From assembly GCA_905182515.1 (NCBI GenBank), contig CAJJBW010000005.1, positions 95,180-159,179 on the forward strand: a DNA stretch of 64,000 nt, given 5' to 3'. Source of the DNA: an uncultured Candidatus Poseidoniales archaeon (GTDB lineage: Archaea; Thermoplasmatota; Poseidoniia; Poseidoniales; Thalassarchaeaceae). Of this stretch, positions 35,629 to 63,858 are shown one piece after another. Below the pieces are notes generated by a model, which was not told the DNA's origin, ran no database searches, and saw only the letters and a program-made list of their open reading frames with translations. The translations under genes and the position numbers were made by a program. Position 1 is the stretch's first letter. Every line of letters begins with the position of its first letter.

Positions 35629-36534
35629 ATGGAGAAAGGCCGTATCGTACTCGGATGTCTAGCGCCACATCCTCCTCACTTAGTTTATGCTGAAAATCCT
35701 GAGCAAAATGAACCATTTTCAGAGGGAGGCTGGGAGACCTTGCGTTGGGGTTACAACCGATTAGCAAGAAAATTAAAAAACATTGATTATGATGTAATGG
35801 TAATATTTACTCCTCATTGGGCAACTTATATCGGAACCCATTTTTTAGGCCTTCCGTCATTTAATTCATTATCTGTAGACCCTATTTTTCCAAATATTTT
35901 TAGATACAAATATGATTTAAGGGTGGACGTTGAATTAGCAGAAGCAATGGAAAAATCTGCTGCAGATGCAGGAATAATAACTAAAATGATGCGTAATCCA
36001 GATTTTAGGATAGATTATGGGACTATTACTAGTTGCCATATGCTAAATCCGGAATGGAATAAACCAATAATTACCATAAGCAGCAATAGAAATTCTCATT
36101 ATTATTCAGGAGAAGTGATGAATGAGCAGTCTTCTGCCCTTGGTGAAGCATGCCTTAAGGCAATAGAAGAAAGTGGGAAAAAAGTAGTTTTAGTGAGTAG
36201 CAATAGTTTATCTCACAGACATTTTGTAACTGAATCTCCATTGCCCGAAGATATGAGTAGAGAGCATATATACAATCATAGTCAATACGTATGGGATATG
36301 AAAATAGTTGGCATGATGAGGGATGGTAAGATGCGAGAAGTAATAGATATCATGCCTGAATATGCTGAACAAACTATCGCAGAAACTGAAGCAGGCGGGC
36401 TAACCTGGATGATGGCCGCCATGGGATTCCCAAAATATCCTGCTGAAATATATGGTTATCAATCAGTAATTGGAACCGGCAATGCAATCGTTGCATGGGA
36501 TCCTAATTCAGCAACAAGGGAAATAGTTCTCTGA
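35629..36534 (+). CDS. Class III extradiol dioxygenase (LigB/DODA superfamily), catalytic-type subunit, 2-aminophenol 1,6-dioxygenase beta-like
   Basis: GCLAPHPPHLVYAENP, VMVIFTPHWATYIG, SSNSLSHRHFV, AEIYGYQSVIGTGNAIVAW. Confidence 0.78.
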   Translation: MEKGRIVLGCLAPHPPHLVYAENPEQNEPFSEGGWETLRWGYNRLARKLKNIDYDVMVIFTPHWATYIGTHFLGLPSFNSLSVDPIFPNIFRYKYDLRVDVELAEAMEKSAADAGIITKMMRNPDFRIDYGTITSCHMLNPEWNKPIITISSNRNSHYYSGEVMNEQSSALGEACLKAIEESGKKVVLVSSNSLSHRHFVTESPLPEDMSREHIYNHSQYVWDMKIVGMMRDGKMREVIDIMPEYAEQTIAETEAGGLTWMMAAMGFPKYPAEIYGYQSVIGTGNAIVAWDPNSATREIVL

Positions 36535-36544
36535 GGTAGTTAAA

Positions 36545-37471
36545 ATGTCAACAGAATCAAACATATTATTTGGAATTTATTGCCCGCCTCATCCGCACCC
36601 TCTTCTTGCACCTGATCTAAATCAAGGATACCGCAATCTAAGATCTGCTTACGATACTCTAAAAACTAGAATTGAAGAAAGTGGGGCAGATATTATTTTA
36701 CTATATTCTACCACATGGCCAAGCATAGTTGGTCATCAGATTCAGGCCCACCCAGAACCAGAATGGACTCATGTTGATGATGATTTTCATTTCCTTGGGA
36801 GTATGCCTTACAAGTTCAAAATAGACTCGGAATTTTCTAACGCCTACAAAGAAGCAGCAGAAAATCGTGGTCTACATTCTAGGACAGTTGCCTACGAAGG
36901 ATTTCCAATCGACACCGGATCAATAGTCGCATTGTCGCTTCTAAATCCTGATAATAAAATTCCTGCTTGTATAGTTTCAAGTAATATGTATTCTAATAGG
37001 TCTGAAACAATAGTTTTGGGTAAGGCCGCCCGAGATGCACTAGCCAAACAAGGGAAAAAAGCAGTAATCGTAGTTGTTGCTAGTTTATCTAATCGTATGT
37101 TTACTGAACATATTGAGCCATCGGAAGATAGAATTCATAGCCCCAAGGATGATGAATGGAATAGGAAAATTTTGGAATTTTTTGATAATGGAAGATTAGA
37201 AGATCTTAGTCAACTATCTAGGGATATTCACGGGCAAATAAGAATACAAAAAGTTGCAGCTTATAAGCCAGTTTGGTGGATGGCGGCAACAATGGGGCAA
37301 CATAATAATTACAATGGCGAAATACTGGCTTACGAAGCTTTACATGGTTCCGGAGGAGCAGTAATCCAACTAACTCCTTCAGATGAATCCATTGGAGATA
37401 AGGAATTCGATGAAGATGACGTAGAATATTATCGAGGAGATCGTAATGTCTTGGGGCAGGGCGCACTATGA
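36545..37471 (+). CDS. Class III extradiol dioxygenase paralog, non-catalytic-type (alpha-like) subunit
   Basis: Aligns to the preceding ORF, but TPHW is replaced by STTW and LSHRHF by LSNRMF. Confidence 0.75.
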   Translation: MSTESNILFGIYCPPHPHPLLAPDLNQGYRNLRSAYDTLKTRIEESGADIILLYSTTWPSIVGHQIQAHPEPEWTHVDDDFHFLGSMPYKFKIDSEFSNAYKEAAENRGLHSRTVAYEGFPIDTGSIVALSLLNPDNKIPACIVSSNMYSNRSETIVLGKAARDALAKQGKKAVIVVVASLSNRMFTEHIEPSEDRIHSPKDDEWNRKILEFFDNGRLEDLSQLSRDIHGQIRIQKVAAYKPVWWMAATMGQHNNYNGEILAYEALHGSGGAVIQLTPSDESIGDKEFDEDDVEYYRGDRNVLGQGAL

Positions 37472-38025
37472 CTAATGATGAAAATAAGACTAATAGAGAT
37501 TTACTTGATAAAGCATTAGAAGCACCTTTGGGTATGACAACTGGGGGAATAACAGCAAGACCCGTTGAAGTCGTAATTGGTAAGAAAGTTGCTGGCAGGG
37601 AATTATCAGAAAATGGCCCATTTATTGCAAAAAATGGCCCATCTGCAGTAGGGGCATACCCTCATCTTTACAGAGTTGGTGACTTAATTTTTGTTAGTGG
37701 AATCGGCCCTCGGTCTCCAGAAAACAACAAGATAATAGGTGGCCCTATAAAGGATAAACAGGGTAACTCTTTGGAGTATGATATACGTGCACAGACAAGG
37801 TCTGTTATTGAAAATATAAGCATTATCTTAGAAGAATATGGATCAAGTCTAGATCAAGTTGTTGACGTTTATTCTATGCTAGTGGATATGGATAGAGATT
37901 TTGACGGATATAATGAAGTATATGCTGAATATTTCGAAAATATCATGCCTGCTAGGACAACATGTTCTGTCTCTGCGCTGCCTACTCCAATTGCAGTTGA
38001 GTTGAAAGTTATAGCAAAAATTTAA
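37468..38025 (+). CDS. RidA/YjgF-family protein (2-aminomuconate deaminase-like)
   Basis: GAYPHLYRVGDLIFVSGIGPRSPENNKIIGG, RSVIENISIILEEYGSSLDQVVDVYSMLVDMDRDFDGYNEVYAEYF, PARTTCSVSALPTPIAVELKVIA. ATGA overlap with the preceding gene. Confidence 0.88.
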   Translation: MTNDENKTNRDLLDKALEAPLGMTTGGITARPVEVVIGKKVAGRELSENGPFIAKNGPSAVGAYPHLYRVGDLIFVSGIGPRSPENNKIIGGPIKDKQGNSLEYDIRAQTRSVIENISIILEEYGSSLDQVVDVYSMLVDMDRDFDGYNEVYAEYFENIMPARTTCSVSALPTPIAVELKVIAKI

Positions 38026-38194: not shown

Positions 38195-39862
38195 ATGAGG
38201 CGTTTTTCCCCAAGCGAACTATTCGGGATAGTCTTACAACCAATAGAGCAAGCATCAGGTGTTTTAGAACGTAAATTAGGGTTATTTTCAGTAGTAATAA
38301 TTTCTATTTCAGCAATGTTGGGTTCAGGATTATTTGTCCTCCCTGCATTAGCTATGCTTCAGATGGGGGGTGGCTCAAGTCCAGCAGGAGGGATATGGTT
38401 GGCATATTTATTGGCAGCATTAGTAATTCTTCCAGCGGCTATTTCAAAATCAGAACTTGCTACGGCTATGCCTGTATCTGGTGGTTCATATGTATTTATT
38501 GAGAGAACTTTCGGCCCATTAATTGGCACTATTTCTGGATTAGGTCTTTGGGGGACTTTCATGCTTAAATCGTCATTTGCATTAATTGGATTCAAGGCAT
38601 ATCTATGGGTTATTGAAGATATTATGAAATTAGATATAAATCTAGAATATGCCTCATTGATTCTTTTAGTCCTGATAGTCGTGATTAATATCTTAGGAGT
38701 CAAAAGAATCAAAAAAGTTCAAACACCGATTGTACTTATATCAACCTTATTCCTATTCTTAACGTGTATTTTAGCTATTTTTACGGTTGAATTGAACTGG
38801 AATGCAGTATTTTCCAGAGACGCATTTGGCTCTGGTTGGGAATCCGTAGCATCTACTGCAGCCTTTGTATTTGTTTCATATGCTGGAGTTACGAAAATTG
38901 CAGCAGTAGGGGGAGAAATAAAGAACCCATCTAATAATATTCCTAAAGGAATATTATTATCTCTTCTACTCTGCTCAGCACTTTACGTTTTTGTAACTTT
39001 AATAATGGCTGCAAGTGTTGATCCTTCATTTTATATGGAGGAAGGCACACTTCACGCCCGAGAAGATCCTGTCTATATTTTCGCTAACGAAGTTGGAGGG
39101 TATAACTTTGGTATTCTCGCTTCTTTACTTGCTGTATTGACCATGACATCAATGGCATTAGCCGGTATTATGGCATCTTCTCGTTTTCTTTTTGCCATGG
39201 CAAGAGATAGTCTTTTACCTGATTTTCTTGAAGATGTTCACGGTAAATTTGAAACTCCTCATTGGGCTATAATTTCTACTGGATTGGCCATGGGGTTAGC
39301 AATTACTTTTTTACCAGTTCACGACGTAGCAGAATTAGCTTCTGGGTTCCAGATAATGATTTTTATTATCATTAATTGTTCAGTAATAATATTACGCCTC
39401 TCAAGAAGCTCACATTCTTGGTATGATCCTGAATGGAAATCACCTCTTTTCCCATTTTTTCAAGTAATTGGAATAATTACTAGTGCCGTCTTATTATATT
39501 TAATGGGAACAAAAGCAATATATGGTGCTGTAGCTACAATAATCTTGGGATCAATTATGTATTATTCATACGGGAAAAGACATCAGAAACCAGAAATAAC
39601 TCCTTGGAATACATTCAGATTAATGTTAATTAATCCTGACCAAGTGGAGCACCGCCGTCGTTATGCTGCATTCCATGCTGCAGATATCGAAGGAACTAAC
39701 CATCTAAATTTACATGAATTTATTGCTGCAATGACTGCACTTGGGTACAAAGGAGATGATGTTGACGCACTTAGGTCATATTTCCACAGTATCGATTCAA
39801 ATTTCGATGGCGTAATAGATATAGATGAATTCTTGACTTATGTGGAAGAAACTACTTTCTAG
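38195..39862 (+). CDS. APC-family amino-acid permease with C-terminal EF-hand pair
   Basis: SISAMLGSGLFVLPALA, FVSYAGVTKIAAVGGEIKNPSNNIPKGI; C-terminal DIEGTNHLNLHEF and DSNFDGVIDIDEF loops. Confidence 0.92.
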   Translation: MRRFSPSELFGIVLQPIEQASGVLERKLGLFSVVIISISAMLGSGLFVLPALAMLQMGGGSSPAGGIWLAYLLAALVILPAAISKSELATAMPVSGGSYVFIERTFGPLIGTISGLGLWGTFMLKSSFALIGFKAYLWVIEDIMKLDINLEYASLILLVLIVVINILGVKRIKKVQTPIVLISTLFLFLTCILAIFTVELNWNAVFSRDAFGSGWESVASTAAFVFVSYAGVTKIAAVGGEIKNPSNNIPKGILLSLLLCSALYVFVTLIMAASVDPSFYMEEGTLHAREDPVYIFANEVGGYNFGILASLLAVLTMTSMALAGIMASSRFLFAMARDSLLPDFLEDVHGKFETPHWAIISTGLAMGLAITFLPVHDVAELASGFQIMIFIIINCSVIILRLSRSSHSWYDPEWKSPLFPFFQVIGIITSAVLLYLMGTKAIYGAVATIILGSIMYYSYGKRHQKPEITPWNTFRLMLINPDQVEHRRRYAAFHAADIEGTNHLNLHEFIAAMTALGYKGDDVDALRSYFHSIDSNFDGVIDIDEFLTYVEETTF

Positions 39863-39925: not shown

Positions 39926-40741
39926 ATGACAATCGCCAGCCGTGCCAAGAAAGTGACAACTCATACCTTGCAAGAAATGAAACAGGGAGGGGAAAAAATA
40001 ACAATGCTAACCTCTTATGATTATTCTTTAGCGCGTTTAGTCGACAGCGCTGGCATCGATGTCATACTAGTCGGCGACTCTGCTTCAAACGTGATGGCAG
40101 GAAATGATACCACAATACCAATAACATTAGATCACATGATATATCATGCTCAGTGTGTAGAAAAAGCCGTAGATAGGGCATTAGTTGTAGTTGATATGCC
40201 GTTTGGTTCGTATCAAGGAGATTCAAAAAATGCTCTAGATTCTGCCATTAGAATCATGAAAGAAACAGGGGGGCATGCAGTAAAATTAGAAGGAGGCATT
40301 GAAATAATAGATTCCATAAAAAGAATAATGACTGCCGGAATCCCAGTTATGGGACATTTAGGATTAACTCCTCAGTCAATTTATAAATTTGGGACCTATA
40401 CAGTAAGGGCAAAAGAAGAATTAGAGGCCACTAAGCTTTTGAATGATGCAAAAGCATTAGAAGAAGCGGGCTGCTTTTCAATAGTTTTTGAAAAAATCCC
40501 TGCAGAACTAGCTAAGAAAGTTACAGAGGAATTGACTATTCCAACTATAGGTATTGGCGCTGGAGCAGAGTGTGACGGTCAAGTTTTAGTTTTACATGAT
40601 ATGCTTGGAATGACTAAAGATTTCAGCCCAAGATTTTTACGAAGATATGCAGATTTAGGAGAAATAATAGATTCTGCAGTAAAAAAATATATAATAGATG
40701 TTAGGAGTTCTGATTTCCCAAATGAAAATGAGAGATATTAA
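39926..40741 (+). CDS. panB: 3-methyl-2-oxobutanoate hydroxymethyltransferase
   Basis: [65 protein letters not shown]. Confidence 0.95.
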
Positions 40742-61776: not shown

Positions 61777-63858
61777 TTGTCAATTATGTCCTCAATTAAG
61801 ACACAAAAAATGGGTCGTTTAATCGCCGCTGGCGTTAAAAATAAAATTGATGATTTAATTGATGCATTGGCTTCACTTAATGCACTACATTTTATTGAAT
61901 ATGATGGGGCTGAGGAAGGATTTGAACTCGGTACTCCAAAAGATGAAGCAGAAGTAATCGGCAAACGTCTGAATCAACTTCGTTCTGCAGCCTCAATCGT
62001 AAACGTCTCCGGACCCGGTGAAAAAGTTTCAGCTGCCCAAGTTCGCTCAGATCTTGATGATTCTTTGACCCATGCTGTAGAATTATTACTGGAGAAAAGT
62101 ACAAATTTAGATTCAGTTGAAAATAAACTATCTTCTTTAAAAGAAAATGTTGCAAATCTGGAACTATTAGCATCTCTGGGTATTGATGTTGAATTATTAT
62201 CTGGTTATTCTAATCTTTCTTCATTTGTAGGTACTGTTACAGACTTAGAAATTTTTAAAGAAATTGAGTATGATAACATCTTTTTTGAAGGCTATTCCAA
62301 TAAAAATAAAGTAATTGCAGTTTTTGTAAAAACGGAAAACTCTCACGCAATTCAATCCAAATTAAATGCCGTCGGCTTTCAGGCTGTTAATATTTCAACA
62401 AATCTAAAAGGAAATCCAAATAATTTACTTAAAGAAATACATTTAGAAATATTATCCCTTTACAAAGAAAAATCTTCACTTTCTAATGAAATAGACTCAT
62501 GGTCTAATGAGTTCGGGCCTTCTCTTGTTTGCGCCTTAGAACTTTTGGAGCGAGAGCACGATATTCTAACTGCACCAGTAAAGATTGGTGTTTCCGAACA
62601 TGCCTTTTTTATTGATGGATGGATTGAAATGTCTCGTTCAGAGGAAGTCAAATCAATATTATCCGATTCTTGCCTATATACGGAAGTTTCTCCATTTGTC
62701 ATAGAAGCTGGTAATGGAGGGCATGGCCATTCAGATCATTCTCACAAACAAGAGATGCCGCCAATCGCATATAAAAATAGAAAGTTAAGTAAACCTATGG
62801 AGTTACTTACCGATGCAGTAGGAAGGCCAGCATATGGAAGAATTGATCCTACTTTATTCATGTTTGTAACATATCCAATATTCTTTGGAATGATGCTTGG
62901 AGATATGGCCTATGGTCTGATTACCATTTCTCTTGGCGTATTTATCATGAGTCGCGCAGACTCAAATGAAATGATGAACTTAGGGGGAAAATTCCTGGTA
63001 TACATAGGATTAGCGACTTTTGGATTCGGTTACCTTTACGCTGAATTCGCAGGATGGGAAATAATTCACCCTCATCATCCTAATCCTGCCGAAGCTCTTT
63101 CTTTCTTGTATCCAGATGCTGCTTTATCTTCATCTCATGATTATTATGCTTGGCATAAATCATTGCCGTTTGGTGTAGAATTGGCTTATCCTTTCCATCG
63201 AGTTACATCTAATCTCGAAGATTTAATAATATTGACAATATATCTTGGTTTTGTGCATATTATATTTGGTAGATTAATAGGTTTCAGAGATGTATTATTC
63301 TACGGCACTGATCATGGTCATGTAGGTTTTCTGGCTGCATTTTTTGAACATGGTGTATGGATTGTTTTGCTCCTCGGTGGCTTTATGTTCTCATATGGTT
63401 ACCTTGGTCCAAGTGAGGCAGAAGGCATGATGATTCCAGGAGCTGTAATTGCCATAACAGCAGTGTTTATGCTAATGTGGACTCTATATAATTATCATGG
63501 CATACCATTGGCGATAAGTTTAATTTTGGCACCAATCGAAGCAATAGGTATGATGCCGTCAGTAATATCTTATGTACGGATATTTGCTGTCGGGATCGTT
63601 GGAGTTAAAATAGCCGAAACGGGCAACATGTTGTGGGATCCAATGAAAGATGCCCTCTTGGAATATAATCCATTAGCTCTAGTATTATTTTTAGGTTGGT
63701 TATTAGTCCAATTATTCGCATGGGGCCTCGGAGTATTTAGTCCTAACATCCATGCAGCCAGGCTTCATTTTGTAGAATGGATGAGGCAATATTATGATTC
63801 TAGCGGAGAGGTATTCTTGCCTTTCGGTTTTCGAACTCGCCACGTGGAGGTTGAGTGA
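61777..63858 (+). CDS. atpI: A/V-type ATPase subunit I
   Basis: DPTLFMFVTYPIFFGMMLGDMAYGLI, EAIGMMPSVISYVRIFAVGIVG, NIHAARLHFVEWMRQYYDSSGEVFLPF. Confidence 0.94.
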   Translation: MSIMSSIKTQKMGRLIAAGVKNKIDDLIDALASLNALHFIEYDGAEEGFELGTPKDEAEVIGKRLNQLRSAASIVNVSGPGEKVSAAQVRSDLDDSLTHAVELLLEKSTNLDSVENKLSSLKENVANLELLASLGIDVELLSGYSNLSSFVGTVTDLEIFKEIEYDNIFFEGYSNKNKVIAVFVKTENSHAIQSKLNAVGFQAVNISTNLKGNPNNLLKEIHLEILSLYKEKSSLSNEIDSWSNEFGPSLVCALELLEREHDILTAPVKIGVSEHAFFIDGWIEMSRSEEVKSILSDSCLYTEVSPFVIEAGNGGHGHSDHSHKQEMPPIAYKNRKLSKPMELLTDAVGRPAYGRIDPTLFMFVTYPIFFGMMLGDMAYGLITISLGVFIMSRADSNEMMNLGGKFLVYIGLATFGFGYLYAEFAGWEIIHPHHPNPAEALSFLYPDAALSSSHDYYAWHKSLPFGVELAYPFHRVTSNLEDLIILTIYLGFVHIIFGRLIGFRDVLFYGTDHGHVGFLAAFFEHGVWIVLLLGGFMFSYGYLGPSEAEGMMIPGAVIAITAVFMLMWTLYNYHGIPLAISLILAPIEAIGMMPSVISYVRIFAVGIVGVKIAETGNMLWDPMKDALLEYNPLALVLFLGWLLVQLFAWGLGVFSPNIHAARLHFVEWMRQYYDSSGEVFLPFGFRTRHVEVE

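Follow-up and report, generated by a model that had tools for sequence, protein, structure and literature searches.

A conserved C-terminal EF-hand pair on an APC-type amino-acid permease of Poseidoniales as a candidate calcium sensor

APC-superfamily amino-acid permeases with a C-terminal regulatory domain are already known, and APC-Usp fusions are mentioned in PMC12159084. Calcium-dependent control through EF hands has been described for the mitochondrial ATP-Mg/Pi (SLC25A23-25) and aspartate/glutamate (SLC25A12/13) carriers, which combine a membrane carrier with EF hands and a helix and whose transport is regulated by Ca2+ (PMC7611774). In the ATP-Mg/Pi carrier, calcium determines the partner of an amphipathic helix: with calcium it is the EF-hand domain, and without calcium it is the carrier, in which case transport is blocked (PMC7611774). 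In bacteria, EF-hand dyads are joined to membrane or redox proteins, according to PMC7016017, and an APC permease fusion is not among the prokaryotic calmodulin-like EF-hand fusions listed in its text. Here, we analyzed a permease encoded in a 64,000-nucleotide stretch ("the window") of an uncultured Candidatus Poseidoniales archaeon of the family Thalassarchaeaceae (GCA_905182515.1, contig CAJJBW010000005.1, positions 95,180 to 159,179). It carries an EF-hand pair as its C-terminal domain, and this choice of domain appears to be new. A sequence-only reading of the locus had called the architecture unusual, in line with our literature search, in which no APC permease with an EF-hand tail was described, and none for Poseidoniales, with the limits that subscription papers and annotation databases were outside its coverage and that automatic annotations may well exist.

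The gene is a single intact open reading frame of 555 amino acids on the forward strand (38195..39862). AA_permease_2 (PF13520) covers residues 28-436 with 131.4 bits (E-value 5.5e-38; cut-off 27), and the AlphaFold2 (AF2) model of the full protein (mean pLDDT 86) contains 12 transmembrane (TM) helices, the last of which ends at about residue 463. Based on these helices, on Foldseek and on Pfam, the transport domain was assigned to residues 30-463 (38282..39583), and the helices, Foldseek and positive-inside counts predict a LeuT-like 12-TM APC fold with both termini inside. The nearest solved relative by sequence is GkApcT (6f34, 5oqt; 3.7e-34), a bacterial CAT/SLC7 homologue, which was also the top Foldseek match to the permease model (6f34, TM-score 0.86 over the target). 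Both proteins have the APC fold and the GSG motif in TM1 (residues 43-45 of the permease), but GkApcT comprises only 461-471 amino acids and lacks the EF-hand tail; its TM5 lysine is aligned to Ser183 in our reading of the pairwise alignment. The scores for the CAT-type model TIGR00909 (216.6) and for BcaP (NF053761, 196.7) were below the curated cut-offs of 556.8 and 690. The protein, the sole AA_permease_2 gene product detected in its own genome (about 71% complete), is a putative amino-acid transporter of the plasma membrane.

Behind TM12, a short linker helix (PWNTFRLMLI region, residues 470-479, 39602..39631), defined by conservation and AF2 models, leads into the EF-hand pair (residues 481-552, 39635..39850). 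EF-hand_7 (PF13499) matched residues 491-550 with 33.9 bits, above the curated cut-off of 30, and a profile of the tail family matched chains of calmodulin, centrin, troponin C and RSP7 in the PDB. In AF2 models of the full protein and of the tail, the helix at 470-479 is followed by helices at 481-496, 506-515, 523-533 and 543-552; the helices of the pair are confidently predicted, and the tail models show the short paired strands typical of EF-hand pairs. Foldseek searches with the tail model gave only weak matches, nearly all of them EF-hand proteins (best E-value 0.02, none below 0.001); one of these is 4zcv, the regulatory domain, with Ca2+ bound, from the human ATP-Mg/Pi carrier. Such values are unsurprising because the domain is so small, and it is the sequence profile that carries the point. 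The APC permease with a C-terminal EF-hand pair, which had been proposed from the letters alone, is therefore borne out by the reading frame, by Pfam and by the model.

The two loops, both delimited by the ortholog alignment, differ in quality. The second (EF2), DSNFDGVIDIDE (residues 534-545, 39794..39829), is a canonical 12-residue loop with D1, N3, D5, G6, I8, D9 and E12, whereas the first (EF1), DIEGTNHLNLHE (residues 497-508, 39683..39718), is degenerate and has no glycine at position 6, both as originally described. Judged by this pattern EF2 appears Ca2+-competent, and the tail may bind Ca2+.

A whole-protein search gave matches in 122 of 148 genomes of Thalassarchaeaceae and in 217 of 244 Poseidoniales genomes from both families, with most alignments reaching residue 545-555; no match to the permease came from the remaining family of the class (f3). 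The second family with matches is presumably Ca. Poseidoniaceae, which PMC9723583 names as the order's other family. From the Poseidoniales proteins, 72 distinct tails were extracted, and in them the calcium proposal withstands the first refutation named for it, a lack of conservation of the EF-hand residues in orthologs. In EF2, D1 and G6 occur in 72/72; position 3 is D or N in 71/72, position 5 is D, N or S in 72/72, and E12 is seen in 66/72. The full calcium pattern is satisfied in 66 of the 72, while positions 2, 4 and 7, which are not ligands, are free to vary. As far as an alignment can tell, this looks like purifying selection on metal binding. EF1 mostly retains L8, D1 and E12 and drifts at positions 3 and 5; a single ortholog (1/72) is fully canonical there, and oxygen ligands at positions 1, 3, 5, 9 and 12 are present in 27/72, including, by inspection, the EF1 of the window (D, E, T, N, E). 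In the linker helix, P470 is found in all 72 tails and W471 in 56. F530 is invariant and E545 near-invariant among proteins from both families that are 44-86% identical overall. Conservation in 72 distinct orthologs rules out a chance match or a frame artefact as the origin of the EF pair.

The side of the membrane on which the tail lies was assessed from the charge distribution, with inside and outside loops assigned from the helices of the AF2 model. On average, 18.1 Lys and Arg residues fall in the presumed inside loops compared with 3.6 outside, and the bias has the same sense in all 50 orthologs counted (50/50). Because of this positive-inside bias and the twelve-helix APC fold, the tail is predicted to be cytosolic, and the calcium proposal also withstands the second refutation named for it, a tail placed outside. 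A tail outside the cell, binding the Ca2+ of seawater, is disfavoured by the same two lines of evidence.

A tree of the transport domain only, rooted with other Thermoplasmatota, placed all Poseidoniales proteins on one side of a branch with an SH-aLRT value of 100. Tail-less proteins are nested among EF-tailed ones, and well-supported branches force at least five changes. On this tree, the EF pair appears to have been acquired once, at the root of the order, and then lost at least five times in Poseidoniaceae, a history limited by the lack of resolution at the deepest forks within the order. Some tail-less copies retain the linker and stop there, for example PFSTFRKDLRSR in locus L084. Frameshifts or split genes do not account for the losses: in the 11 tail-less genes checked, no convincing EF-hand match was found within 1.5 kb downstream, the best one having an E-value of about 0.04 and comprising the linker part only (L096 from genome G008, with a run of N at an assembly gap, and the contig-edge copy L097 were left out). 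In the Thalassarchaeaceae loci that were read completely, no clear tail-less copy was present. In some Poseidoniaceae, partial second permease copies stand beside the EF-tailed one (L098:2121-2597, L061:7651-8004), either tandem duplications or assembly remnants.

The architecture foreseen by the sequence-only reading thus extends to both Poseidoniales families, but not to the relatives elsewhere in Thermoplasmatota, which instead have an EIIA-like (PTS_EIIA_2, PF00359) or Usp (PF00582) domain at the same C-terminal junction. Together with Usp-tailed permeases of haloarchaea, these are homologous proteins of about 28-42% identity that differ from the Poseidoniales permease in the domain fused. 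Two haloarchaeal relatives were inspected for an EF tail in plasmid-borne APC proteins: one (42% identical) is tail-less with an adjoining Usp gene, and the other (28% identical) has fused Usp domains. Since relatives bear EIIA-like or Usp domains at the same junction, comparison of the sequences marks the C-terminal end of these transporters as a slot where regulators get swapped.

Taken together, the most likely role of the tail is that of a cytosolic Ca2+ sensor by which transport is modulated, and we regard this as probable. A rise in cytosolic Ca2+ would lead to Ca2+ binding by EF2, with EF1 acting as a structural partner that binds weakly or not at all. Once Ca2+ is bound, the conserved linker helix (TPWxTFR, residues 470-479) and the EF pair would pack differently on the cytosolic face of the transporter, and transport would be turned up or down. 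The comparison with the SLC25 carriers is one of design only: the permease has three comparable parts in a different order (carrier, helix, EF pair), but its transport domain is APC and not a mitochondrial-carrier domain, and its EF hands form a C-terminal pair, whereas the SLC25 proteins have an unrelated carrier fold and four or eight N-terminal EF hands and work in a eukaryotic organelle. Five or more losses of the tail in lineages that kept the transporter fit a modulatory role better than one in the transport path itself, and the regulator slot at this end of the protein also favours the sensor.

Several points weigh against such a sensor. EF1 is degenerate, which leaves EF2 as the one loop that looks fully competent, and where an EF pair has a single good site, binding may be weak or Mg2+ may be preferred. 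At least five lineages of Poseidoniaceae lost the tail and kept the transporter, so the tail is dispensable there, and the AF2 model is silent on Ca2+ and, as read, on contacts between tail and transporter. The parts, their conservation, the cytosolic side and the Ca2+-competent EF2 come from sequence or prediction, and we infer Ca2+ binding, its coupling to transport, the direction of the effect and the substrate. Calcium-gated transport, as first interpreted, is partly supported, with binding and gating or modulation as its inferred steps.

The main rival explanation, possible but in our view rather doubtful, is that the EF pair serves in structure or assembly, by holding a permanent metal (Ca2+ or Mg2+), by dimerising the transporter or by anchoring it to a partner, without a switch. 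The degenerate EF1 would fit this role, since inactive EF-hand units typically dimerise, as noted in PMC7016017; the regulatory domain of the aspartate/glutamate carrier is a dimer interface (PMC7611774), and the tail helices are confidently folded in a model that contains no metal. A purely structural role is harder to reconcile with an EF2 that has kept the full Ca2+ pattern in nearly all orthologs though its neighbouring positions vary, and with the domains of known regulatory or signalling type that relatives have in this place. The losses among Poseidoniaceae and the state of EF1 could also be taken as signs of a decaying passenger of a gene fusion that has no present function. This is highly improbable and already disfavoured by conservation: D1 and G6 of EF2 and F530 are invariant and E545 is near-invariant in both families, and the Thalassarchaeaceae loci that were read completely gave no clear tail-less copy.

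The genes next to the permease invite a different function, in which the tail would be a docking site that recruits aminophenol-dioxygenase and deaminase enzymes to the membrane for hand-over of the imported compound. Of 61 loci from both families, 50 indeed have dioxygenase and RidA genes upstream on the same strand, often within 130 bases. Tail-less copies (L084-L094 except L087), however, keep exactly the same neighbourhood, and the EF-tailed loci L048, L049, L052, L058 and L061 are without it. Because each occurs without the other, tail and neighbourhood are not coupled; a tie between the tail and the dioxygenase cluster is ruled out by the tail-less copies that retain it, and we consider docking very unlikely. 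The preferred interpretation remains that of a cytosolic Ca2+ sensor.

In the window, the upstream genes encode beta-type (35629..36534; 3vsg_B, 6.8e-106, and synteny) and alpha-type (36545..37471; 7txy_A, 6.2e-40) subunits of a LigB-family 2-aminophenol 1,6-dioxygenase and a RidA-family protein with 2-aminomuconate deaminase as best PDB match (37468..38025; 6izh, 1.1e-25), all on the forward strand. In many Poseidoniaceae the second LigB and the RidA gene are one reading frame, a fusion confirmed by Pfam for L045. Downstream follows panB (ketopantoate hydroxymethyltransferase, 39926..40741, forward strand, assigned by family match and synteny), which is found near the permease across loci of both families. 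The aminophenol-dioxygenase-like pair and the deaminase-like RidA (35629-38025) are kept across this marine archaeal order, and this conserved neighbourhood suggests an aromatic amino compound, or a precursor of one, as a candidate substrate that the permease may import. A link to tryptophan catabolism was considered for the substrate and not adopted: a tryptophan 2,3-dioxygenase is encoded at 1702-2775 on the reverse strand (PF03301, 1.1e-60) and present in 9 of 10 Poseidoniales genomes, but no kynureninase scored over the cut-off in the Poseidoniales genomes searched.

In the surface ocean, Poseidoniales (Marine Group II) rank among the most abundant archaea, and they are thought to use dissolved peptides and amino acids. 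To our knowledge, little is known about cytosolic Ca2+ signalling in archaea. If the sensor reading is true, a Ca2+-sensing tail kept on a permease would provide direct, testable evidence for such signalling, and nutrient uptake in these archaea may be tuned by calcium, a design so far familiar mainly from mitochondria. The EF-tailed, tail-less, EIIA-tailed and Usp-tailed versions form a natural set for comparing the ways in which APC transporters are fitted with regulators.

All 24 of the sampled Poseidoniales genomes had EF-hand_7 matches, with 1 to 17 per genome; elsewhere in the phylum such matches occurred in 11 of 92 genomes, nearly always as one match. Ca2+/cation exchangers were found in 8/8 genomes tested, and both observations favour the sensor interpretation. 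For Poseidoniales, family-specific modules with calcium-binding domains and a suggested role in signalling have been reported in PMC9258230, where, in the part available, this permease is not named. EF pairs grafted onto the permease, NuoL, the A-type ATP synthase subunit I and a large membrane protein might together reflect a lineage-specific cytosolic Ca2+ signalling, in which Ca2+ coordinates uptake and respiration as in mitochondria but by independent invention; we put this forward only tentatively.

The EF-hand pairs in NuoL and subunit I of particular Poseidoniaceae genera are more surprising than the permease tail. In genome G148 (genus g12), an A-type ATP synthase subunit I (L118:1980-4385, forward strand; V_ATPase_I, 7.9e-33) carries an insertion at about residues 316-409 that comprises an EF-hand pair; in other genera, the matches cover residues 1-315 and then 410-802, with the insert absent, and the subunit I of the window genome (window positions ~61801-63852) is likewise without it. 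In genome G149 (g13), the complex I subunit NuoL (L128:1985-4552, reverse strand; TIGR01974 over the cut-off), encoded beside NuoM, has EF hands inserted at about residues 469-525, and similar frames of 847-872 amino acids in several g13 genomes are matched by the EF module. The window's own genome encodes two more EF-hand proteins, otherwise without Pfam families (L002:1420-3000 and L003:1270-2280, contigs C3 and C6). Finally, a multi-TM protein of about 660 amino acids in Poseidoniaceae (L119:706-2682, L129:2576-4567, L131), the membrane part of which matches no Pfam family, carries an EF-hand pair at its C-terminus, and L131 seems to have two. The EF module of this protein shares about 40-60% identity with that of the ATP synthase insert, which gives the impression of copying from one protein to another.
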